Positions 1,721-25,302 of a stretch of DNA of 31,832 bases are shown one piece after another (position 1 is the first letter of the stretch; the number at the start of each line of letters is the position of its first letter). The notes under the pieces are model-generated. The model saw only the letters and a program-made list of their open reading frames with translations. It had not been told where the DNA came from and ran no database searches. Origin of the DNA: a virus. The stretch is from positions 1 through 31,832 of the IMG/VR virus record IMGVR_UViG_3300047287_000662. One strand, 5' to 3'. The position numbers and the translations under genes are program-made.

Positions 1721-4309
1721 ATGTTGCTGCTACAGACGCTTGTTGGCCCCAAGGTCCACAACGTAACTGTTGCGGAGTCTGTTCAAGCGACTGAAACAGT
1801 AAGCGATGTAATCGATTACCCCGTTAGCGCAACCGAAACTGTAGCGGGTTCTGATTCGCTTAGTGTCAGCGCACTATTAGGTGTATCAGCATCTGAATCA
1901 GCGACGGCCACATCGACAACTGATTTCATACCTGGGCAGACCTTCAGTGTCAGCGTTACTGAGTCGTCAGCGGGAACAGAAACACCCAGCGCGACATCGG
2001 CTACGTCAGCTTCCAATACCGAATCTGTCAGCAGTACGGATAGCCCATCAGCGGTAACGACCGTAGTGGCCTCCACCAGTGAGTCAGCCACTGCCACGGA
2101 GACTCCGTCTGCAGTCACAACTTTAGTTTCATCAGTCACTGAGAGTAGCACTGGAAGCGACACGGCAAACGGCACAGCCCTAGCAGTTTCAACGCTAACG
2201 GAATCCGCTACCGCATCGGATACCCCATCAGTAACTGCAGCAATGGGCTCTTCAATAACAGAGTCCTCCACAGGCATGGAATCGACTTCTGGGGTCAAAA
2301 CAGCGGTTGCATCGCTGACAGAATCATCCAGCAGTACAGAGACTGTCTCTACAGCCTACGCTGGCGTTGTTTCCATTACGGAGTCAGTTCAGGGCACAGA
2401 TGTGCCTACTGCAAACTTCAGCACCAATGCGTCAACCTCAGAATCAGTATCGTTTACCGAGTCTGCAAACAGCGGATCCACAGCCACAGCGGCAACTTCA
2501 GAGGGTGTCAGTATATTGGACACCCTCTCAACGACCTTGTCCGCCAGCGTATCGCTTTCGGAATCAGTTACATCCACAGAGTCAATCTCACAGGCTTACC
2601 AAGCGAATGTAACCTTGACTGAAGCCTTAACTGGTACGGAATCTACCAGCGCATCAGCAGTTGCCACGTCAGCAATTTCAGAGTCTTTAACAGGTACGGA
2701 CAGTAACTCTGTTACAGCCGCAATGGGCGTCTCACTTTCAGAATCAACAACCGGTTCTGAGTCCACCAGTGCGTTATCAACGGCAACAGGTTCGGTAACC
2801 GAAAGTGTAGTACCGAGTGATACAACATCAGGAACATATACTGCAGGCGTTTCAACGTCAGAGTCTGCCTCAGTAACGGATACACTTTCTGGATCCTACT
2901 CAACTAATAGTAGCATCACGGAATCATCCACGGGCAGTGATGTACCAAACGGCATCAAGGTTACACCTGCATCCGCTACTGAAAGTGCGGCATTAACAGA
3001 GACGACTACGGGTGTTTCTAGCCTAGGCGTTAGCAGTACTGAAACGGTCGCATCAACGGAGACACCGACGGCAGTAGCTCAATGGGTAGGCTCCATTTCT
3101 GAGTCCCTCTCAACGAGTGATACCCCCAGTGTCCAGGGTGTGGTCTATCCGGTTTCAGCCTCTGAATCAAGTACGGTAACCCACGCACAAACTACAGGTC
3201 TTGCTACTAGCGCAGCCACGTCTGATACTGTCTCAGTAACTTCCAGTCAGAGCGTTATCGCCGCACAGGGTGTCTCTACGACGGAGTCGGTTGCAGGGTC
3301 CGATACCGGCAATAGTGCAATGACCTACGCCACCAGCGTATCGGAATCCTCCTCGACACAGGATTCAACCAGCAATACGATGGTAATGCTGGTAGCTGCC
3401 ACTGAGACAGCTGCAGTGACTGACAGTCTATTCGGTAACTACTCAGCGGTAGCATCGGCCACAGAATCCACAGCGGGTAATGAATCCATCAATAGCAATC
3501 TTTTGACGGGTGCCGAAGCGGATGAGACATCTGTAATCACGGAAGCTGTCGCAGGGGTGGCAGTCTACCCGGTCTCTGCCACGGAAGCGGTTGAAGTCGC
3601 CGATAGCAGTCTTGCTGCACAGATCATGTTGGCAACTGCCACGGATTCATTGAGCGCAAGCATGGTGGCCTCAGGGGATAGACTGACCAACGCATCTATT
3701 GAAGAGACCTTGGCAATTACCGAATCCAATACCAGCGTCAAGATCTCTGTAGTCAGTGTCGTCGAGTCAGTATCCTACCAAGATGCGTACTCTGGAATAG
3801 GCTCCATAAATGGATCTGTTTTAGAAAACCTAAATTCAGGGGATAGTGCTGCTTCAAGTTACCAAACCCTTGCTGCCTTAATCGAGGTGGCGACTTTAGG
3901 GGAAACTACCTATAGGTATGTGACTTTACAAGCAGCTATTACGGAATCGTCTACAGGTGTAGACCTGCTAGACGTTCTTGCAACGATTGTAGTAGCAGCG
4001 AATGAAACTGTCAGCCTGGATGCACAGACGGGTGTCACTACCACTTATGGAGCCTTTATACAGGAGACCGTACAAGCTTTAGAGACGTCAAATAGATTAG
4101 GTCGACCCTATGCGTTGCAGGATCACCATGAAGTTATCATAAAATTTGACTCCCTTACTTCCGTGATACAATCTGTTAGTAATCAAGCTCTTATGCAGTT
4201 CTCCGGCCAAAATGTGATTGTTAACGATGGGCATAGTTCCGCCTTGGTAACCCTACCGGATCAATCTGCCGTTGTAGAAGCACCAGAGCTATCAACCCTA
4301 AATGCATAG
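1721..4309 (+). CDS. 862-aa protein of 20-residue Ser/Thr/Glu repeats, probable virion surface protein
   Basis: Residues about 15-785 are a near-continuous array of a 20-aa repeat of the form xxSxTESxxxT(D/E)TxSxxx: one Glu, a second acid six residues later, then a small hydrophobic half. Glu19, 39, 59, 81 and 101 show the spacing, with one 22-aa step. The last about 75 residues are not repetitive (HHEVIIKFDS to ELSTLNA) and could be a folded cap or anchor. There are almost no Lys, Arg or Cys residues in the array, so the protein is very acidic. Such composition suits an extended fibre or beta-solenoid, perhaps binding cations (inference). The start ATG has only a weak ribosome site and sits 3 nt after the previous stop, which suggests coupling. 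Similar ESVTATD repeats occur in other phage virion proteins, but no function is established here. Confidence 0.6.
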   Translation: MLLLQTLVGPKVHNVTVAESVQATETVSDVIDYPVSATETVAGSDSLSVSALLGVSASESATATSTTDFIPGQTFSVSVTESSAGTETPSATSATSASNTESVSSTDSPSAVTTVVASTSESATATETPSAVTTLVSSVTESSTGSDTANGTALAVSTLTESATASDTPSVTAAMGSSITESSTGMESTSGVKTAVASLTESSSSTETVSTAYAGVVSITESVQGTDVPTANFSTNASTSESVSFTESANSGSTATAATSEGVSILDTLSTTLSASVSLSESVTSTESISQAYQANVTLTEALTGTESTSASAVATSAISESLTGTDSNSVTAAMGVSLSESTTGSESTSALSTATGSVTESVVPSDTTSGTYTAGVSTSESASVTDTLSGSYSTNSSITESSTGSDVPNGIKVTPASATESAALTETTTGVSSLGVSSTETVASTETPTAVAQWVGSISESLSTSDTPSVQGVVYPVSASESSTVTHAQTTGLATSAATSDTVSVTSSQSVIAAQGVSTTESVAGSDTGNSAMTYATSVSESSSTQDSTSNTMVMLVAATETAAVTDSLFGNYSAVASATESTAGNESINSNLLTGAEADETSVITEAVAGVAVYPVSATEAVEVADSSLAAQIMLATATDSLSASMVASGDRLTNASIEETLAITESNTSVKISVVSVVESVSYQDAYSGIGSINGSVLENLNSGDSAASSYQTLAALIEVATLGETTYRYVTLQAAITESSTGVDLLDVLATIVVAANETVSLDAQTGVTTTYGAFIQETVQALETSNRLGRPYALQDHHEVIIKFDSLTSVIQSVSNQALMQFSGQNVIVNDGHSSALVTLPDQSAVVEAPELSTLNA
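1760..4087 (+). repeat. About 39 coding repeats with 60-bp period
   Basis: The period is 60 bp (20 codons), kept with few exceptions from about 1760 to 4087. Copies differ strongly in nucleotide sequence while the Glu, Asp/Glu, Ser and Thr positions are kept. This argues for old duplication followed by selection on the protein pattern rather than recent expansion. Confidence 0.8.
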
Positions 4310-4318
4310 GAGCCCAGG

Positions 4319-4804
4319 ATGCAGATCTATCTAGCGACTCAGAAAGGCCCACTCAAAATGTCGGCCATCCTAGACCCAGATGACGTGATCGCCGTCAGGG
4401 TGTACTACTCCGCACCACCGTTCGAAGCGAACGTCGTCTACCGTGAGGGTATGGTAGTAGCTCCGACAGTGGACAATGGCTACTATTACGTCTGTACGGT
4501 TAATGGTAAGGCAGGATCCACCGAACCAACCTGGACACAGTCAAAGGTAACCAGCGGTACAGCGGTATTTACGGCTACACCTTACGACCTCTGGGTATTA
4601 CCCACTGAGACACTGACAGCTTCAGAGTGGACAGCGACCATTGCTGGTGTCCTAAGCCAACAACAGCATGACGATCAAGTAGCCTCTGTATGGGTAGGAC
4701 CATTACCTTCTGGCACGACTGAAGTTTCATTGACCAACTCTGTGACTAAGTCGACTGGCGAGAAAATCAACAGAACTTTGAAATTCAAAGTAGGGGAACA
4801 ATAA
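4319..4804 (+). CDS. Small phage structural or accessory protein (161 aa)
   Basis: A GGAG ribosome site lies just upstream at 4309-4312, supporting this start over the internal Met at residue 14. Residues about 40-85 carry a compact pattern (VVYREGMVV, then NGYYYVCTVNGKAGSTEPTW) that recurs in phage and chitinase-like proteins as GdvV....G..Y.c...G.sG..eP.W, a small beta module sometimes annotated as carbohydrate-binding. The C-terminal end (TLKFKVGEQ after a KSTGEKINR stretch) resembles the ending of small accessory genes that sit just before holin genes in other phages. The stop overlaps the holin start by 1 nt (TAATG). Function is unproven; a virion-associated binding or fibre-linked role is possible. 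Confidence 0.55.
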   Translation: MQIYLATQKGPLKMSAILDPDDVIAVRVYYSAPPFEANVVYREGMVVAPTVDNGYYYVCTVNGKAGSTEPTWTQSKVTSGTAVFTATPYDLWVLPTETLTASEWTATIAGVLSQQQHDDQVASVWVGPLPSGTTEVSLTNSVTKSTGEKINRTLKFKVGEQ

Positions 4805-5010
4805 TGGAAAAGATCTTAGGTGCATTTTGGTATTTAAAAGACAGGCTTAAGGAACCCTCCACGCTGGTAGCCTTAGCTGTCATTACGGATAAGGCAGGCG
4901 TCCACATCGATCAAACAATGATCGACAGCGCCTTAAACCTAGTATCCATCGCAGCAGGTATGGCCGGTTTTTTCATGTCAGAGGGAAAGGCATTAGGGCG
5001 TGTATCCTAA
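4804..5010 (+). CDS. Holin-like small membrane protein
   Basis: This 68-aa protein starts with an amphipathic segment (FWYLKDRLKEPST), followed by a moderately hydrophobic stretch at residues 20-34 and a clear membrane-length segment at about 43-58 (LNLVSIAAGMAGFFM), then a short charged tail. The LKEPST box near residue 15 and an EGK near the end are typical of a family of small phage proteins usually annotated as holins. Holins form the timed lesions in the inner membrane that begin lysis. No endolysin gene lies in the window. The start overlaps the preceding stop (TAATG) and has an AGGGG just upstream. A GGGAAAG heptamer in slippery phase lies at codons 60-62, described separately. Confidence 0.6.
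   Translation: MEKILGAFWYLKDRLKEPSTLVALAVITDKAGVHIDQTMIDSALNLVSIAAGMAGFFMSEGKALGRVS
4983..4989 (+). other. Candidate -1 frameshift heptamer GGGAAAG
   Basis: In the holin frame the bases read G GGA AAG, matching the X XXY YYZ pattern and identical to the heptamer used for the G/GT frameshift of phage lambda. A -1 slip would leave the holin frame six codons before its stop and enter the lipoprotein-like frame, giving a fusion of about 120 aa. A 6-bp inverted repeat (ATTAGG at 4992, CCTAAT at 5006) begins only 2 nt downstream, closer than the usual 5-9 nt, so a stimulatory role is doubtful. Confidence 0.35.
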
Positions 5011-5165
5011 TCCTGGCACTATTGATTCAGGGCTGCTCTTGCACTAGCTATGTGGCACCCCTGATAAAATGGACCAACGGTACTGAGTTTAATCCGTCAT
5101 TGGACGGTGTACAGTACAACATAGATTGTAAGGAGCTTTATGAAAATAAAAGCAGTAGCGATTAA
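4992..5165 (+). CDS. Small lipoprotein, possible outer-membrane spanin (Rz1-like); AUU start or frameshift product
   Basis: In a frame different from both neighbours, 4893-5165 is open. It encodes a near-ideal lipoprotein signal: from codon 4992 it reads (start)RACILILALLIQG|CSCTS, with Arg at position 2, an 11-residue hydrophobic core and the modifiable Cys at codon 15. The mature part is about 43 aa and ends 26 nt inside the next gene. No ATG, GTG or usable TTG lies upstream in frame. The best start is ATT at 4992, which has GAGG 7 nt before it; AUU starts are known (infC, pcnB). The alternative is a -1 shift from the holin frame at 4983-4989. Position after a holin suggests an Rz1-like spanin, but the mature part is not proline-rich and no clear inner-membrane partner is seen. 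It fills the only gap in this operon. Confidence 0.5.
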   Translation: MRACILILALLIQGCSCTSYVAPLIKWTNGTEFNPSLDGVQYNIDCKELYENKSSSD

Positions 5166-5376
5166 AAGTTTTGCTACTTTCATACTAGGTGGCGGTGTAT
5201 TTTCTCAGATCCATAAGGCCGTGGAAGCGTGGGAAGATAAGGAATTATCTGGACCATTAAAGAGGCAGGCCGTCCAGCATTATTTGATGGATGCGTTGCA
5301 AGAAATCGGTAGCTGGGCTATAAACCTGGGTATCGAGCTGGCTGTTGCCTATATGAAAGAGAAACAAAATGGCTGA
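5140..5376 (+). CDS. Small helical protein of the holin cassette, unknown function
   Basis: This 78-aa protein has a strong ribosome site (AAGGAG, 5 nt before ATG). It is mostly helical: a hydrophobic N-terminal stretch (AVAIKSFATFILGG), a charged segment with a GPLKRQAV motif, then an amphipathic helix (INLGIELAVAYMKEK). Small proteins with a similar E(D/E)..LSG..KR.AV pattern and a closing IELAV helix occur beside lysis genes in other phages, but I cannot name a function. The N-terminal segment is short and polar for an inner-membrane spanin, so that role is only a possibility. The gene overlaps the lipoprotein frame by 26 nt upstream and the next gene by 8 nt. Confidence 0.55.
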   Translation: MKIKAVAIKSFATFILGGGVFSQIHKAVEAWEDKELSGPLKRQAVQHYLMDALQEIGSWAINLGIELAVAYMKEKQNG

Positions 5377-6845: not shown

Positions 6846-7627
6846 CGAACATCCCGTCCAAGGACATTGCTAAAGCCCTGAAGCTATCGATCACGGTAGG
6901 TAAGGGGATTACTCATGATCTCGTTAGCAAAGAACTTTCGAATGCGTCTAATAGGCTAATTGGCTACAAATCCAGGGATAAGGGCGGGCTTGCTTACGTA
7001 CTAAGCGATGATATGCATAAGGCAGCAATCGAGGGTATTGACCTTGTCAATGCACTTTTGAAAGCAGGTATACAGGGCGCTTCTAGTAACCCTAGTCCCA
7101 TAACAGGGGTACCAACCAATTGGAAACCTTTATCCAAAAGCTGGATTAAACGCAAGGAAGCTAGATCTAGGGACCTGTACTGGAAAAATGCTGGGGATGT
7201 TTTCGGTGTCAAGGGTAAGGGTCGTAAACCCGGTGGTTTAGCCCTGGGATTCAATAATATCGCCAACAACTATAGACGTGCGATAAATGCACATGGTCCC
7301 CTGGTCACAACTAGAAGCCGCAAGCTGATCGTTGGTAAGCCTTATAAGTATGACATACGGATATCTCTGCCTACTCATAGATCGCCAATCATTCAAAGAA
7401 TTCTAGCGGAAGCTTTTGTGAAGGAACTATACCTGAATGAAAAGCTTACTCCTGTGGGTGACACCGATACTTTAATTTCGTACCTAGAGATTGATGAAGG
7501 TCGAACATCCAGACCTTTCATAGCCAAAATTATGGCCATGAAAGGTTCAAGATTTAGGGATGAGCTGAAGGCGACAGTCACCAAAATCCTGTCGTCCAGC
7601 ATGTGGTCAGTAAAATTAAAAACCTAA
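6842..7627 (+). CDS. Tail completion / gp10-like neck protein
   Basis: This 261-aa basic protein has a helical N-terminus and a WKPLSKSWIKRKE segment near residue 98, followed by LYWKNAGD. A W.pLs..y...K.....lW..tG pattern is typical of HK97 gp10-like and Mu virion-morphogenesis proteins. Near the C-terminus SRPFIAKIMAMKGSRF resembles the PF(l/i)rPAl... ending of the same group. It is larger than typical gp10 (about 120-180 aa). The gene overlaps its predecessor by 4 nt. Its stop codon lies within the last 12 bp shared with the convergent minus-strand gene, and I see no terminator between the two, so transcripts from both sides probably run into each other. Confidence 0.5.
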   Translation: MTNIPSKDIAKALKLSITVGKGITHDLVSKELSNASNRLIGYKSRDKGGLAYVLSDDMHKAAIEGIDLVNALLKAGIQGASSNPSPITGVPTNWKPLSKSWIKRKEARSRDLYWKNAGDVFGVKGKGRKPGGLALGFNNIANNYRRAINAHGPLVTTRSRKLIVGKPYKYDIRISLPTHRSPIIQRILAEAFVKELYLNEKLTPVGDTDTLISYLEIDEGRTSRPFIAKIMAMKGSRFRDELKATVTKILSSSMWSVKLKT

Positions 7628-8179
7628 TCGTTTCAACGCTTTCTTACCTTCATCAGTGGTTAAATCATGGACATTTGCCTTGCTGCCTCCCTTATCATCC
7701 TTATATTTTCCCCCGAATCCATACATGGCCGCCTCCATGTTCAGCAGACCTTCCTCGAGGAGCCCTGTCATATATTCGTTGACAAGTTTCATGGCATCAT
7801 CTCGATCTAACTCACAATAGATCTTTTTGGCCACATCAAAGTTATAACCCACCATCCTCAGGATACGACTATCCACCATGAGGTTGCTTAAGTATTCATG
7901 GTAAGCAGTCCCGAATGACCGGACTGCTTTCTTAGTCTCTTGAGTCTCGTTCTGCTCCATCTCCTTACGCAATGCATCCAACCGATCAACGAAATAAGTT
8001 AAGTCCTCGTCTGTTGGCTGGCGTACCCCACAAATATCAGTAATGACCCTAAAGAACACATCGAATACCTCGTCCTCAGTCGTACAATGACGAGCTTCAT
8101 CCGAGTAAATTTCGATCGCTAACAGAGGTATCGGAAATCTTCTTCCTTTTAATTGATTAAAGAATATACTATTGCTCAT
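7616..8179 (-). CDS. Minus-strand protein of unknown function between connector and major tail genes
   Basis: This 187-aa protein is the only convincing minus-strand gene. Its ATG (8179-8177) has GAGGA 7 nt upstream, and no good plus-strand gene competes over 7628-8179. It is acidic and mostly helical, with Glu/Lys-rich amphipathic segments (residues about 56-85 and 130-150) and a Gly/Lys-rich C-terminal tail ending KKALKRLGF. No membrane segment, signal peptide, helix-turn-helix or catalytic motif was found. Tail assembly chaperones of similar size and character usually lie between the major tail and tape measure genes, a position left empty here, so this could be a displaced chaperone (weak inference). 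A moron or regulator is the alternative. It is transcribed divergently from the major tail gene and converges with the connector operon. Confidence 0.65.
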   Translation of the reverse strand: MSNSIFFNQLKGRRFPIPLLAIEIYSDEARHCTTEDEVFDVFFRVITDICGVRQPTDEDLTYFVDRLDALRKEMEQNETQETKKAVRSFGTAYHEYLSNLMVDSRILRMVGYNFDVAKKIYCELDRDDAMKLVNEYMTGLLEEGLLNMEAAMYGFGGKYKDDKGGSKANVHDLTTDEGKKALKRLGF

Positions 8180-9089: not shown

Positions 9090-9101
9090 TCATCCTTGAT
9101 T

Positions 9102-9139
9102 AAAAGGCGGCCTATCGATTCGGTAGGCCGCCTTTTTTT
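9102..9139 (+). terminator. Strong Rho-independent terminator after the major tail gene
   Basis: The arms GGCGGCCTA (9106-9114) and TAGGCCGCC (9124-9132) pair perfectly. They are flanked by AAAA and TTTT that extend the stem to 13 bp, and the run is T7 in total (9133-9139). It starts 12 nt after the stop codon. Partial read-through here would lower tape measure expression relative to the tube protein. Confidence 0.9.
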
Positions 9140-9167
9140 ATGCCTGAAAAACAGTTACACTTCGAGT

Positions 9168-9181
9168 GTGCGGTTCCGCAC
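9168..9181 (+). promoter_or_regulatory. Short GC-rich hairpin before the tape measure gene
   Basis: GTGCGG and CCGCAC are adjacent inverted arms separated by TT, giving a 5-bp stem with a 4-nt loop. It is the only other structure in the 117-bp gap between the major tail and tape measure genes. The tape measure ATG has only a weak ribosome site (GAG, about 9 nt upstream). No clear promoter was seen in the gap. Confidence 0.35.
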
Positions 9182-9206
9182 GTCCTCCAACCTCTGAGTT
9201 TGCATC

Positions 9207-12200
9207 ATGGCCAATCAATCTGCACAAATCGATTTAGCTGTCACAGTTAATGCCCTGGTCGATAAGATCACGGTACAGGAAAACCAGCTTAAGAAAGCGA
9301 TTTCCACGCTAGAAGAGAATTTTAAAAAGCAGAAGATAGATCTTAAAGCGCCAACAACGATCACTCCACAGTTGGAGACAGACCTTACTGCCTTTAAGAA
9401 AGAGGTTGCCAAGATCAAGACTGCTTTGACGAAAGAGTTGAAATCTGCAACCCAGCTGAAGGATGTGTCTCTTGGTATTGCTGATGCGATCAAGAAGGAA
9501 TTACAGGACGCCAACAGCAAGATTATTCCCCAGGAAGGGAAGAAGGTTATCACGGGACTTAAATCATTCCTCGATGACCTGCTTAAGGAAAATACAACCC
9601 TTACTAAAGGGCAAAAGAAGAACCTTATTTCAGGCCTGCTGACGATAGAGGGAGCCACCTTAAGTTCTGCCAAGCGCACCATTAATGACTTTCAAAAGGA
9701 TGTTGTAGCGGCATCCGATCAAGCATTAGCCAAGGTAGGCCGCATACAGCAGCTGTTGGCCCAACAACCTGGGCAAGTAAAAGCCTTACGTTCTGAGCTT
9801 GCCGGTGGTGTGCCATCAGGTATCGCTGCGGCTAAGAAAGATGCTGAAGCACTGGTGGACCTCTACAACTTATTGAGGAAAAGCTCCGGCAAGATGGAGC
9901 TTACAGGGACCACCTCAAAAGATATTGAAAACCTGCAACTGCGTATCAGTTTGATACGTAAGAGCATGGACGACCTCGCCCGGTTAAACGCTGAAATGGC
10001 GAGGAACCCAAGCAGATCCGTCGACTTCGGGTTCACCCCACAGCAGGGCTTGGAGAAGATGGACGCCTTTAGAAAGGCGTTAGCCCAAACACGAGATACC
10101 CTTGCAGAAATCAAGAAAGAAGCATCAGGCATTGCTGATGTTGAGAAAGCGACCAAGAAAGCTGCTGAGACCCAAGCAGTTGCAGATGCTGCCCGTGCTC
10201 AAGGTGCTCAAGGTTATATTAAATTATTGCGAGAGCAGTACACAGCTCAGTTGGCACTTGATAAGAAGAGCAAAGATTTTGGGGCATCTGATGCCATTCT
10301 TGTTCAACTAAACCAAGAACTCGAAATCAGAAAGCGCCTGGATGATGTCACCAAACGCCAACGCACAGGTATCGACAAGTATCAGGAAGCATTGTTTGGC
10401 GTAGCCAATGCAGCCAAGATTGACCTGGATACCGAGTTAAAGGCCAGAAACCAACTGCTCTCTGTCATGGAGAAGCAGGCGATCAGCAGTTTGAAATTCA
10501 GCGCCGATGAGCTTAAAGCTGAACGCGACATCATCGCAAACATCAAGCAGGAAATAGCTGAACGTAACAGTCTTGCCAATCTGCAAAAACAATCGGCAGA
10601 AAATGTAGCCTTAATGAAGGCTAAGAACCTGACGGTACAAGAGCAGGTCACCATACTTAAAGACCAACTTGCTGTCCAAACAAAACTACAGGCTCTGACG
10701 GGTAAGGAATCCGAACAGATACCTCTGCTGCAGCGCATGATCGCCGCACGGGAGAAAGTGGTCGACCGCCTCAATGCTGAAGAAGCTCTACGAGCTAAAG
10801 TCGAAAAGAGCATGATCGACGCCAGCAATGCGGAAGTCATTAGCACGGAGAAAGCACTAGCCGCTTATAAGCGATTACAAGAAGTCTTGATTGCTGGTGG
10901 CAACATCACTAAGCAGTTATACCAAGCCGAAGAGGCCTATGTTGCTAACCGCATAAGGGATCTGGAACACGAGATCGCTTTAAGTAAGCAGCTGGCAGCG
11001 GAGCAGACTCAGTTAGCCAACATACAAAAGTCCTTTGGTAAATTCACTACAGGGGCCCAGGCTCTATCCAGTGGTGGGTTGAACCTAACGCAGTATAAGG
11101 AAGCCTCCAACCAGATCGATCAATTTAAATCCAAGCTTGTTGAGCTGGAGAAATTAGCAACATCTGCTGATGCCCAGATTGCGTCAGCAGCACAGCAAAT
11201 GATTGACGTTTACAAACGTGAGTCATCCGCTATAGAGACGCTACTTATAAACGAAAAGCAACTGGTTGAGATTAGAACAGCAAGCAGTCGTGCGGCTACT
11301 GCACAAACGGATGAGAACAGAATCAAGGCGTTGCAGCAGCAGGCTAGGGCTGTACAGGAGCTGATCACCGCTCTGCATGATCAAGGTAAGGCAGGTACCG
11401 CAGTAGCTGCCAACATGCGGGATTTCCATGCACAGCTTACCCAGCAAATCGCAGCGACTAAGTTGCAAATTGCAGAGACACGCTCACTTGAATCTTCCTA
11501 CACTAAGTTAGGCAATGCCTTTAGATCGTTTGTTAGATACGGCCTTGAATATGCCGCGTTTTACAAGATTCAACAAGCCATTACAGACGTTGTTAAGGGC
11601 GTCGTACAATTAGAAGACGCTTTCAAATCGGTGCAGGCTGTAGCTGGCGCTACTTCTGCCGAAATGGAAAGCGTTATTGCGGCCATTAAAAAGGTTGCAA
11701 TAGAGACGGAGTTCTCAACCAATCAAATCGCTGAAGCGGCACAGACTCTGGCACAGGCTGGTTTAGCCATCAAGGACGTAGGTGCAGCTCTTGATGCAAC
11801 GGCCAAGTTTGCCTCCGCAACCGGCACAAGCCTGAAGACATCCGCAGACCTCATGACCACCATGAAGAATGTCTTCCAGGACATGAGGTTCGATCAGATA
11901 GCGGATCAGCTCACCAGCACAATCAACCTATCCAAGTTATCCGGGGAAGGCCTAGCAACGATCCTGTCCAGAGCGGTTGAGGTATCGGATAGCTTTAAGA
12001 TCATCCCAGAGCAAATGCAAGCGGCCTTTGCCGTCTTGAAAAATGCGGGTATCAAAGACAGCACCATCTCAACAGGCTACAGACAAGCGCTGCTTGAGCT
12101 TTTTGCACCTGACGAAAAATTACTCAAGTATCTGCAAGGCCGTTATGCAGAGATGGGTAGGAATCTATCCAAAGAAACGATTGCAGCCATGTTCCAGTCG

Positions 12201-20900: not shown

Positions 20901-21760
20901 ACATCCTGGGTATCGACACCGTCAAGCTACCCTTGGACGGTAAAGTCCCGATCTACAAAGTCGGTGGCGTGGGGGTTGTCCACAATACCCAGAATACTAC
21001 CTGTCCTAACCCAGTAACTGCCGGTTCTACCGTCAGCTGCGGCAGAACATTATTGAGTTATGCCAAGGTCTTTGATGCCTCTGGAGCAGTCGTTCCGACA
21101 ACCAAATACACCACGAATTTGGACGCCGGTACCGTTACGTTTGGTACGCCTTTAGATTTGACTGGGTACACCCAGCCGTTGTACATTGAGCATCGAATTG
21201 AGGACATGGCGTTAATCACTGACGTCCAGATCACAGGCCAAGTCAAACTGATGAAACCTTTGAGACATGCCTATCCTGCCAACACGACTTACTTGAGTAG
21301 TGCTCTGGTTATCGGGGATCTTCAAGGTCGTACAACCAACATGTTTGACCAGCAAACCTGGACCAGCGTATGGAGTGACTCACTGATCGGGTCAGCCGCG
21401 AACTCATCATTCAATGATGTGCTGTATCCAATCACCACAACAAATGTCGGATCTATACAGGAACGCTGGGCGATTGTATTTACAGCATCCACCGCTTTTA
21501 GTTGCTACGGTGAATACTCAGGCTTAGTCGCTGTAGGTACTACAAGTGCAGACTTTGCTCCGGTCAATCCCGTCACAAGTCAGCCTTATTTCACCATTAA
21601 CCATCTAGGTTGGGGGTCTGGCTGGGCATCCGGTAACGTATTACGGTTCAATACCAAAGGTGCAAACTTCCCGATATGGTTGGCTAGAACCACCTTGCAA
21701 TCTGATCCGCAGGTTTACACCGACAACTTTAAAATGCAAATAAGAGGGGACGCTAACTAA
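17975..21760 (+). CDS. Large tail-tip structural protein with tandem beta domains (1261 aa)
   Basis: The start overlaps the tape measure stop (ATGA). The N-terminal about 220 residues include an RMTDYEDGGGKMTSN box, VVDGEVNNLFNDIS and YGRVSLRKAYSAV, a pattern I recognise from large tail proteins placed right after the tape measure in some siphophages. The middle repeats a beta module with the signature (D/N)-x-G-x-G-x-L...G-x-V-(D/N)-Y-x-(T/S)-G-x-(V/I) near residues 342, 438, 523, 612, 835 and 922, some copies partial. The C-terminal about 140 residues (from NMFDQQTWTSVW, through QERWAIVFTAS, YFTINHLGWGSGW and LARTTL to FKMQIRGDAN) look like a conserved end domain. Position suggests a distal tail or tail-tip role. 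It has no lectin or enzyme motif that I can identify. Confidence 0.65.
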   Translation: MTISETDLKLLKSERMTDYEDGGGKMTSNVVVDGEVNNLFNDISQLDRTYGRVSLRKAYSAVHTASTDTYLGSHIILTDPPDDANVLVTMFSTESWTDERLVAQEYIERYNIKATESRWKLFGSYVLNQMSVTMFSLSNAKDADTSSGTTVPEVGETFVLYDVTHGYEQMFRVTDILYTGIQVFTDSQGDFYKDVIVLAVTGKMKYAFSGAQVPGRFSSSNTVTAPEDYRSYVKVLTTQIADVSEYYGVKKITLPLSIGDVTAKVDSPYNAIVPSSRSETAIIDLQAGYGAERMFPTGPENGLTYSGSISANTSPYQVSRYLGYGIKTFSVTVTFGGTTLTDDGAGNLVASNTGSTFAGYVDYAAGVVTVTNTTSFSGTLNITASPAVSMFNISDSLGVEINEQNRRYVYTETLDPTPAPGTVSVDFRALGKWYRIIDNGNGSLSGQGGNGTVNYSTGSIAITLLAMPDFGSTIIYSWGSPIYTSLPYALELGKAVLKFQLDDPLIDNDSLTISWSGGSVTCDTAGNLTGSATGNVDTTGLVTLIPTTFPSSSTAITIHYDQVAYDSDITEQAVTLALTGPNSRLASVVLGTTGVLTPFSVRLKNSKWMFWDDGSGGIVRASTSQGFPGKVHTLHEQDVEGVTSLTLPVGYTPGNTIVRFTVSATSAAPVDGATGVGTIVFSDTTTPGVMAMVDSNLPSGTTITMQPSYLGGVLTFSVYAATRVDMDVIFTSVSSAITLSGASVDYTTRTVTIPKSALGSKGTSIIGFRTAGGANKVVVSFNSTSYAFTASYAFGSATVTSKTKVFSGAGSIVLSIGTSLIPRSLKFTMGGHTYVDNGSGTLLQDVSATTGVGSDVGVVDYSTGHITFGIPYSSMSNNPVLLYSAKKTSDVRVKHMVFRVPGAPTAIGSFQLNAGGLHAEADFNGNITGDQVIGTIDDESGAVNITSFGDSGNLFVNAADVLYNCVLLSYIPLDPDILGIDTVKLPLDGKVPIYKVGGVGVVHNTQNTTCPNPVTAGSTVSCGRTLLSYAKVFDASGAVVPTTKYTTNLDAGTVTFGTPLDLTGYTQPLYIEHRIEDMALITDVQITGQVKLMKPLRHAYPANTTYLSSALVIGDLQGRTTNMFDQQTWTSVWSDSLIGSAANSSFNDVLYPITTTNVGSIQERWAIVFTASTAFSCYGEYSGLVAVGTTSADFAPVNPVTSQPYFTINHLGWGSGWASGNVLRFNTKGANFPIWLARTTLQSDPQVYTDNFKMQIRGDAN

Positions 21761-22941
21761 TGGCCGGTACAGAAGTCATACTATTAAGAAGCACCGACAC
21801 CGGGGCCCCTGTCTTAACAGGTCAAGCAGGCTCCCTAATCACCTTGTTGGATGCCTGTTTGGTCAACGGATACAATTCAAAGACCATCACCATTACCCGG
21901 TCGGGAACCACCGCAACCGCTACCTGTGCCACAGCGCACGGGTTTGCTGCTGACGGGGTGAAGGTACAGATTAGTGGGGCGAACGAGGCCGCCTACAACG
22001 GTATCTTCCTCATATCCAATGTGAGCACTTATACCTTCGACTTCACGGTAGCAGGCTCACCCGCCACACCTGCGACGGGTACCATAACCGCAAAGATGCC
22101 TGCCTTAGGTTGGACCAAGCCATTCTCGGACGTTAACTTAGCGGCGTATCGAGGGGATGCAGCGAGCACGGGCATGTATATGAAGGTTAACGATACAACG
22201 ACTTCACACGCCAATGTTCGTGGTTACGAAACCATGACCGACATTAATACGGGTACGGGCTTATTTCCAACGGTTGCTCAGATAGCATCTGGGACCTATT
22301 GGGTTAAGTCGCAGACGACGGATGCGACTGCTAGGTCCTGGATTGTTATTGGTGATGGCTATGAGTTTTTCTTGTACGTATCCACCCACACCTCCTATAC
22401 ATCCAGAAAGGGTTTCCATTTCGGTGACCCAAAGTCAGAAATGGCAAGTGACCCCTACGGTTGTTTAATTATTGGAGACATCGCTGCCGTTAGTACGTAT
22501 CCAGATACTAACTGTTATCAGCCCTGTATCAACACTAATACCACATCTATAACAAATATTACGACTATGCTGGGCCATTATTTTGCTAGAGCCTACACCC
22601 AGACGGGCTCCTCAGTGGCCGGGTGTAAGATAGGGCCATCTATATCTTTTATGGCGCAAAGCGGTAGCAATGCTACCCCAGGCACCAATGGAGGAATAGC
22701 CTATCCTTCCCCTGTAAATAACGGTTTATACATAGCCCCTATTTTTCTAGTGGATACTCTAGGGCTTAGGGCGCAGATGACGGCCATGTGGTGTCCAGGG
22801 CATACAAGGCCTCTTGGGGACAGTACCTTTTTAAGTGCAGAGGCTTCCCCAATTGGCCGTAGACTACTATCAATAGCGTCAATAGGGTCCAGCGGCTCCT
22901 TAGGAGAAGTTCACATGGACATCGACGGGCCTTGGAGATAA
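21760..22941 (+). CDS. Tail-tip protein, paralogue 1 of 3, with inserted FCCH-like module
   Basis: This 393-aa protein starts within the previous stop (TAATG). Residues 1-40 (LRSTDTGAPVLTGQAGSLIT, then LDACLVNGYNS) and about 114-393 (GWTKPFSDVN, WIVIGDGYEFFLY, then RRLLSIAS and HMDIDGPWR) match a conserved phage tail protein pattern. Between them, residues about 41-113 carry an extra module (SGTTATATCATAHGFAADG, VQISGANEAAYNGIF, FDFTVAGSPATPATGTI). This resembles the module annotated in phages as ubiquitin-activating enzyme E1 FCCH-like, an HG(L/F)..G..V.isGa....YNG...i pattern; no enzyme activity is implied. Two tandem paralogues follow. It is likely a virion tail-tip or fibre component; the number of copies suggests variation of the host-contacting surface. 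Confidence 0.6.
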   Translation: MAGTEVILLRSTDTGAPVLTGQAGSLITLLDACLVNGYNSKTITITRSGTTATATCATAHGFAADGVKVQISGANEAAYNGIFLISNVSTYTFDFTVAGSPATPATGTITAKMPALGWTKPFSDVNLAAYRGDAASTGMYMKVNDTTTSHANVRGYETMTDINTGTGLFPTVAQIASGTYWVKSQTTDATARSWIVIGDGYEFFLYVSTHTSYTSRKGFHFGDPKSEMASDPYGCLIIGDIAAVSTYPDTNCYQPCINTNTTSITNITTMLGHYFARAYTQTGSSVAGCKIGPSISFMAQSGSNATPGTNGGIAYPSPVNNGLYIAPIFLVDTLGLRAQMTAMWCPGHTRPLGDSTFLSAEASPIGRRLLSIASIGSSGSLGEVHMDIDGPWR

Positions 22942-22944
22942 AAC

Positions 22945-24117
22945 ATGGCTGGGAAAATGGTCAGCTTATTTCGAAGTACCGATACGGGAGCCCCGACTTT
23001 AAATGGGGTTGCCGGTAGCCTTATTACGGTTTTGGATGCTTGCCTAATCACGGGTTACAACTTCAAAACCGTGACCAGCATCAATCGGTCTGGACAAACC
23101 GCTACCGTGTACGTCCAGACAGGCCACGGCCTTCCAGCCGATGGCGGCCCCAAGGTAAACATTTCTGGGGCAAACCAATCAGCCTACAACGGTAACTTCC
23201 AATACACCTACGTCGATGCCAACTACTTCACCATTACGGTAGAAGGCACCCCGACGACCCCAGCAACGGGTAGCATATCCTCATCCATCGCACCCCTTGG
23301 CTGGAACAAACCTTTTACAGGCACGAATCTAGCGGCCTACCAATCGACGGCCTCGGACTCAACAAAGATGTATTGGCGGGTGGATGATACGGCCAGTCAA
23401 GTTGCTAGTCATCTCGGCTGTGAGCTTATGACTAGCATAACTTCCTACAGTAATACCTTTCCCAGTTCTTCGCAGAATAGTGGTAACCCACTTTATGTAA
23501 TCAAGTCATACACCGCCGATTCCGTGAGTAGACGTTGGATTATAGTGGGAGATGGGTACGAAGTTTTTATCTTTTCAGCTCATAACTATGGGGGCTCCGA
23601 GTATATGTTTGCCACTACCCATTTTGGGGACCCTTGTTCTGAGATGTTAAGCGATCCCTATGGTTGTTTAATTTATGGCACTTATAATCCTGCGACTTCG
23701 GCGTATTCCGATGGATACTCATATTCACATCAGTTAAGTGATTCTCTTTCACTACAACAGGGGGATAGAGCGCATTATTTTGCAAGAAGCTACTTACAGA
23801 CGGGTAGGTCTGTTTTCGCCCATAAACACGGTAACTTCAATTTAGGTTCACAATACCTTGGACGAGGCGTAGTACCGTACCCCAACCCAGCGGATAACGG
23901 ATTACACATTGGTCCTGTATTCTTAACTGACCCCTATGGGATACGGGCACGGCTTAGAGGTCTATGGCAACCACTCCACACAAAGCCCCTGGGTCATGGG
24001 TATTTACTACCCGCTAACCAGTCACCCATAGGAAGGAGGTTATTCGCCATTTCTAACGTACACGCTAGTACCGTAGGGGGAGAAACTCACATGGACATCG
24101 ACGGACCTTGGAGATAA
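22945..24117 (+). CDS. Tail-tip protein, paralogue 2 of 3, with inserted FCCH-like module
   Basis: This 390-aa protein is collinear with its neighbours on both sides: LFRSTDTGAPTLNGVAGSLI, then LDACLITGYNFKT at the start, the inserted module at residues about 42-113 (GQTATVYVQTGHGLPADGGP, NISGANQSAYNGNF), then GWNKPFTGTN, RWIIVGDGYEVFIF, FGDPCSEMLSDPYGCLIYG and the shared end HMDIDGPWR. The middle surface region (residues about 230-290) is the most diverged from the other copies. The ribosome site GGAG for this gene lies in the last codons of paralogue 1. Same likely role as paralogue 1; divergence at DNA level shows the duplication is not recent. Confidence 0.6.
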   Translation: MAGKMVSLFRSTDTGAPTLNGVAGSLITVLDACLITGYNFKTVTSINRSGQTATVYVQTGHGLPADGGPKVNISGANQSAYNGNFQYTYVDANYFTITVEGTPTTPATGSISSSIAPLGWNKPFTGTNLAAYQSTASDSTKMYWRVDDTASQVASHLGCELMTSITSYSNTFPSSSQNSGNPLYVIKSYTADSVSRRWIIVGDGYEVFIFSAHNYGGSEYMFATTHFGDPCSEMLSDPYGCLIYGTYNPATSAYSDGYSYSHQLSDSLSLQQGDRAHYFARSYLQTGRSVFAHKHGNFNLGSQYLGRGVVPYPNPADNGLHIGPVFLTDPYGIRARLRGLWQPLHTKPLGHGYLLPANQSPIGRRLFAISNVHASTVGGETHMDIDGPWR

Positions 24118-24120
24118 CTT

Positions 24121-25302
24121 ATGGCTGGAACAACCGTTAACGTATTTCGAAGTACAGACGCAGGCGCACCTGTACTATCTGCTGCCCAGGGTACAGTCAT
24201 CAATGTCCTCGATGCTTGCTTAATCAACGGATACAACTCAAAAACTATCACCATTACAAGAACAGGGCAGACCGCCACGGCCTCTTGTACATCACACGGC
24301 TATGCGCTAGACGGCGCAACAAAAGTTAGGATTAGTGGAGCAGGCCAAGCCGAGTATAACGGTGATTTCACGATCTTCAACGTCACGACCAACACCTTCG
24401 ATTTCACGGTTACAGGTTCACCCGCATCACCTGCAACCGGAACGATTACCTCCATCGTGGCCCCCCTGGATTGGAGTAAACCCTTCTCCAGCACTGGTCT
24501 AGCTGCCTACAGATCAAACGCTGTAACGGGTACCCGCCTTTACTTGAGGATCAACGATAATAACCCTGACGCTAATACTTACCAAACAGCAAGGATGATT
24601 GGGTATGAGTCAATGTCAGACATCAATACGGGGTTAGCCCCATTCCCAACCACCGCACAAATATCGGGTGGTTTATGGATCAGTAAATCATACAATGCCT
24701 CAGGGGTCGCAGTACCTTGGGTCTTAATCGGTGATGGGTACTCCTTTTATTTTTTTAATGTGCCTTATCTCACATCCTATAGCGGCTACAGGATTTATCA
24801 CTTTGGAGACATTGCCTCATTTAAGCAGAGTGATCCCTACGGTTGCTTTATCGCCGGGGACCTCGCTAATGCCACGCTCCAAGCACCGGAGGGGTCTAGC
24901 AACATAGTAGCAACTAGCACACAGACCACACTCGTGGATTCCGCACAAGGTAGGTATTTGGCTAGAGCCTACACTAATCTTGGTGGCTCCATAATAACGC
25001 TGCTACAGGGTAACTACACATTAGGGGGTACCGTCTCAGGGTACTCGGGGGTCGTCCCATTCCCAAACCCCTGCAATAACGGATATTACTTATCTCCTTT
25101 TTACTTATCAGAAGCATCGTGCCTGAGGGGTAAGCTAGGTGGCATGTGGCAAACCCTACAGATAAGGCCATTCAACGCCTCTAACGTAATAATTCCAGCC
25201 TCTCAAAACTCTGTTGGGCGGAGGTTATTGATACTGCAAACAGGTGGTGTTAGTACCACCTACGGAGAAAGGGCTTTCGACATCGACGGGCCTTGGAGAT
25301 AA
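24121..25302 (+). CDS. Tail-tip protein, paralogue 3 of 3, with inserted FCCH-like module
   Basis: This 393-aa protein keeps the same order: VFRSTDAGAPVLSAAQGTVI, then LDACLINGYNSKT, the module at about 42-115 (GQTATASCTSHGYALDGATK, RISGAGQAEYNGDF, FDFTVTGSPASPATGTI), then DWSKPFSSTG, PWVLIGDGYSFYFF and QSDPYGCFIAGDL. The end is RAFDIDGPWR rather than HMDIDGPWR. Its module is closer to that of paralogue 1 than to paralogue 2 (shared FDFTV and GSPA.PATGTI). The final bases again provide the ribosome site for the next gene. Role as for the other copies. Confidence 0.6.
   Translation: MAGTTVNVFRSTDAGAPVLSAAQGTVINVLDACLINGYNSKTITITRTGQTATASCTSHGYALDGATKVRISGAGQAEYNGDFTIFNVTTNTFDFTVTGSPASPATGTITSIVAPLDWSKPFSSTGLAAYRSNAVTGTRLYLRINDNNPDANTYQTARMIGYESMSDINTGLAPFPTTAQISGGLWISKSYNASGVAVPWVLIGDGYSFYFFNVPYLTSYSGYRIYHFGDIASFKQSDPYGCFIAGDLANATLQAPEGSSNIVATSTQTTLVDSAQGRYLARAYTNLGGSIITLLQGNYTLGGTVSGYSGVVPFPNPCNNGYYLSPFYLSEASCLRGKLGGMWQTLQIRPFNASNVIIPASQNSVGRRLLILQTGGVSTTYGERAFDIDGPWR

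Follow-up and report, generated by a model that had tools for sequence, protein, structure and literature searches.

A putative overlapped lysis lipoprotein gene with a proposed ATT start one base away from an ATGA junction

In the window—the whole stretch of 31,832 nucleotides of viral DNA analyzed here—the frame at positions 4992–5165 probably represents a real, independently initiated phage lysis lipoprotein gene, which would start at AUU and encode a probable o-spanin, and whose ATT would derive from an ATGA junction. Ordinary gene finders would miss this gene because its proposed start is an unusual ATT and not an ordinary codon. An earlier note had described a lipobox frame behind the holin gene and offered two routes into it, an AUU start and a −1 frameshift; its coordinates for the frame, the holin, the ATT, the GAGG, and the slippery heptamer all proved correct on recheck.

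The stop-to-stop frame 4893–5165 (+ strand) is open and lies in −1 phase relative to the holin-like open reading frame. It contains RACILILALLIQG followed directly by CSCTSYVAPLIKWTNGTEFNPSLDGVQYNIDCKELYENKSSSD. The absence of an ordinary start codon that the earlier note had claimed is borne out by a codon-by-codon list: neither ATG nor GTG occurs anywhere 5′ of the lipobox cysteine, and the sole TTG ahead of it (5022) sits within the signal core and comes too late. Read from 4992, the coding frame (+) gives a 57-residue precursor, which begins with the hydrophobic lipobox signal MRACILILALLIQG and continues directly with CSCTSY, and a mature part of about 43 residues from Cys15. The lipobox I-Q-G-C occupies 5025–5036 (+), with the cysteine codon at 5034–5036; the order of basic residue, hydrophobic core, and lipobox cysteine is the predicted signal of an o-spanin precursor. 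This coding frame shares its first 19 nt with the 3′ end of the holin-like gene, and its last 26 nt are also the first 26 nt of the next gene. This downstream gene (5140–5376, +; 78 residues) begins with ATG behind a good Shine–Dalgarno (SD) site, AAGGAG, at 5130–5135.

The holin-like gene itself (4804–5010, +) runs from an ATG to a TAA at 5008–5010 and encodes a small membrane protein of 68 residues with a KDRLKEPST motif. Its label is based on this architecture and on similarity to a protein of one relative, L002, which matches a PHROG holin family; the window protein gives no significant match of its own. Its C-terminal LGRVS reaches beyond the end of the relatives, as the proteins of L002 and L004 terminate at approximately window residue 63. 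A 6-bp inverted repeat (4992–5011, ATTAGG…CCTAAT) covers both the ATT and the stop codon of the holin-like gene; its hairpin is weak and overall no stronger than in shuffles.

The lipoprotein is very probably real. In a relaxed scan for a hydrophobic signal plus cysteine over nine phage stretches (280,374 codon positions), the background was approximately 0.03 matches per 1000 codon positions, which corresponds to approximately 0.3% for a 90-codon frame, and the lipobox frame is the only such match on the + strand of the window. It is also alone among the six frames in being free of stops over 5011–5139. Hence, the frame stands out beyond the chance occurrence of such a signal. Its codon usage is equivocal, with a score between those of coding and wrong-frame stretches. 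Against PHROG, the lipoprotein shows no significant spanin family match—the best is the Rz-like spanin PHROG 1804 at E 0.11—and neither a Pfam match nor a tblastn match in the phage collection was found.

The hidden lipoprotein overlapping the holin-like gene, as the earlier note had it, gains support from a syntenic relative. Among the viral contigs scanned, for which the holin-like, downstream, and tail proteins served as queries, the same cassette was found in only one, an 85.7-kb phage contig (L005, of which 17 kb was examined as L021); scans of genome contigs for the cassette found none. The gene order of L005 matches that of the window, with 62% identity for the downstream gene, 59% for the one after it, and 59 to 73% for the head and tail neighbors. 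Its holin-like gene encodes 60 residues and has a similar layout (FKEETTW…), and within this gene a lipoprotein-like frame, MTRSSFLGWLCALLLILTVPSC…, begins at a true ATG (3575) and is followed by the 62%-identical gene. On the coding strand of the 17 kb, this is the single signal-plus-cysteine frame, and it sits at the place syntenic to that of the window. Other relatives carry something else there: L006 an unrelated coiled-coil/transmembrane protein, L015 and L016 a short gene only. The L005 lipobox is atypical (VPSC), and the two lipoproteins are too divergent, with too weak a residue match, for their pairwise alignment to be used; a K-x-S-S-D common to both falls in a stretch whose other frame is under constraint from the downstream gene. 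What we claim from these sequences is conservation of position and type, and not proven homology. The comparison with relatives thus stands for the lipoprotein-like frame at the syntenic place, whereas the heptamer, the ATT, and the −1 relation are not kept in this one relative.

For the lipoprotein, initiation at 4992 is favored. The ATT (4992–4994, +) lies at a proper distance from an SD-like GAGG (4981–4984, +), 7 nt upstream, with no better start in frame; only 2.5% of all ATT triplets have an SD-like tetramer 5 to 9 nt upstream. Two other codons, CTG 5013 and TTG 5022, would leave no signal sequence as starts, and ATC 5004 and ATC 5010 come without a basic N-region and without an SD site at a fitting distance. 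The SD spacing of the ATT is normal and the holin stop follows 16 nt downstream, an arrangement that might be well suited to coupled initiation. AUU starts are rare and weak; infC and pcnB are genes initiated in this way. In Yersinia pestis, an AUU start with an SD site works for RcsD-Hpt, within rcsD (PMC10191623). The AUU route of the earlier note is plausible and the one we favor, its GAGG verified.

What the earlier note had missed is that this ATT is a single base away from an ATGA start–stop overlap. Together with the next base it reads ATTA, which differs from ATGA only at 4994 (T to G). A G at this position would at once create an ATG start for the lipoprotein and a TGA stop for the holin-like gene after residue 63, about where the L002 and L004 relatives end; ATGA overlaps are found at six other gene junctions in the window. 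Hence, the ATT is most readily understood as derived from an ATGA junction, or as a sequencing error in one, and the simplest history is one in which such a junction was altered by one base, in nature or in assembly. The second of these, in which the T at 4994 would be either a minority variant or an error of the consensus, and the start an ordinary ATG within an ATGA overlap (holin of 63 residues, lipoprotein of 57), is an unlikely though by no means negligible alternative. The six further junctions, the end of the holin-like relatives at that very residue, and the ATG of the L005 frame all speak for it, as does the origin of the sequence from a single environmental contig. On the contrary, the rest of the contig bears no obvious broken genes, and substitution errors are uncommon in consensus sequence. 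We also consider that the missing start might mark a decayed or untranslated remnant, a gene that is eroding. The lack of a canonical start and the intermediate codon usage would fit such decay; yet, the frame remains open until its stop, which falls within the next gene, and neither the signal sequence nor the SD site is damaged, which makes this the most improbable of the accounts.

The frameshift route rests on the heptamer GGGAAAG at 4983–4989 (+), which is in −1 slippery phase of the holin-like frame (read G GGA AAG) and opens directly into the lipobox frame. Ribosomes shifting here would produce a holin–lipoprotein fusion of approximately 120 residues, from which signal peptidase II might free the identical mature lipoprotein by cleaving at the internal lipobox. 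The heptamer is an exact lambda-type site and the only in-phase GGGAAAG in 10,076 codons, and G_GGA_AAG is highly shift-prone in Escherichia coli (PMC5009743); in-phase heptamers of the general X XXY YYZ type number 22 in the window, three of them in the holin-like gene. However, RNA folding near the site as a stimulator is no better than in shuffles (z −0.3 and −0.4), the nearest hairpin begins just 2 nt past the heptamer, and the purine run is explained by the overlapping SD-like GAGGGA. In L005, moreover, the lipoprotein-like frame is +1 to the holin-like gene—as opposed to −1 in the window—with its own ATG, and the holin-like gene has no in-phase slippery heptamer. Because of these three features, frameshifting is not a mechanism common to both phages; from the sequences, the shared mechanism appears to be an overlapping gene with its own start. 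The fusion reading is hence disfavored and rated as quite unlikely, and the −1 route of the earlier note does not carry over to the relative. For the setting of the ratio of lysis proteins, which the earlier note had envisaged, the analysis gave no support. A combination, in which AUU initiation at a low level and −1 shifting at GGGAAAG, with the fusion cut at the internal lipobox, would yield the same mature lipoprotein and tie spanin output to holin translation, is very unlikely. The literature searched yielded no paper describing phage lysis cassettes in which a holin and a lipoprotein are linked by an AUU start or a frameshift.

As to function, the likeliest role of the lipoprotein is that of an o-spanin, since an endolysin and an Rz-like candidate without an embedded o-spanin are encoded upstream in the relative. 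In the same late operon of L021, the endolysin (PHROG 7, E 2e-46) is accompanied by a protein with an N-terminal transmembrane segment and a coiled coil (10554–10946, − strand), whose match to an Rz-like spanin family is weak (E 0.008). This Rz-like candidate contains no embedded o-spanin or lipoprotein, so within the 17 kb examined the nested lipoprotein is the sole candidate for an o-spanin. In the window, an i-spanin partner is not visible; the contig begins downstream of that point.

With independent initiation as the preferred reading, ribosomes would start at codon 4992—AUU as sequenced—by using the GAGG, probably coupled to ribosomes finishing the holin-like frame at the UAA at 5008–5010. 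The product would be lipidated on Cys15 and then sent to the outer membrane, where it would most likely pair, as the o-spanin, with an Rz-like inner-membrane protein whose gene lies upstream, beyond the contig, and would probably be used to break the host outer membrane. The AUU is probably one base removed from an ATGA start–stop junction. If the AUU start is true, this would be a phage lysis gene of a rare kind, with a weak start codon and an overlap with a holin-like gene, and it illustrates how spanin genes escape annotation. Should the T at 4994 be an error, only an overlapped, unannotated gene remains unusual, and the case becomes a warning that one base can make an ordinary overlapped gene look exotic.

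The rest of the window bears several further features. At 1721–4309, the structural operon encodes an 862-residue Ser/Thr-rich repeat protein, at the place of which the relative has a Leu/Gln-rich repeat protein. A gene at 7616–8179 (−), flanked by the tail completion gene and that of the major tail protein, is encoded on the strand opposite to the whole tail operon. Its homologs in L015 and L016 (28–29% identity) immediately follow the major tail protein on the + strand, in the tail-chaperone position, and similar proteins occupy the inverted place in L010 (2389–2961) and L011 (830–1405); the gene has the look of an inverted tail-assembly chaperone. The stretch that separates the major tail protein from the tape measure gene (9090–9206) has no chaperone gene or G/GT frameshift pair, and a terminator-like hairpin with a T run lies there at about 9107–9140. 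Three consecutive paralogous genes for proteins of approximately 390 residues each span 21760–25302; upstream of genes two to four in this run, the SD regions are nearly identical (CTTGGAGATAA).

Compared with known systems, the candidate shares with the AUU-initiated infC, pcnB, and RcsD-Hpt an SD site followed by AUU and a start within another gene, but it would belong to a phage lysis cassette and lie one base from an ATGA junction. The lambda G/GT pair uses the same GGGAAAG; the window candidate, however, is not a tail chaperone, its frame relation is not conserved, and its downstream frame has an SD site and a signal sequence of its own at the start. Spanins offer the closest parallel. 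o-spanins are commonly overlapped and unannotated, with 196 missed in one survey, and Rz1-type o-spanins, like the candidate, are short lipoproteins with a lipobox signal and extra periplasmic cysteines, encoded close to lysis genes, overlapped with a second gene in a different frame, and missed by gene finders (PMC6139136). In the window, by contrast, the partner gene is holin-like and not Rz, the start is ATT instead of ATG, GTG, or TTG, a significant spanin family match is lacking, and the i-spanin candidate, which only the relative shows, is encoded separately.
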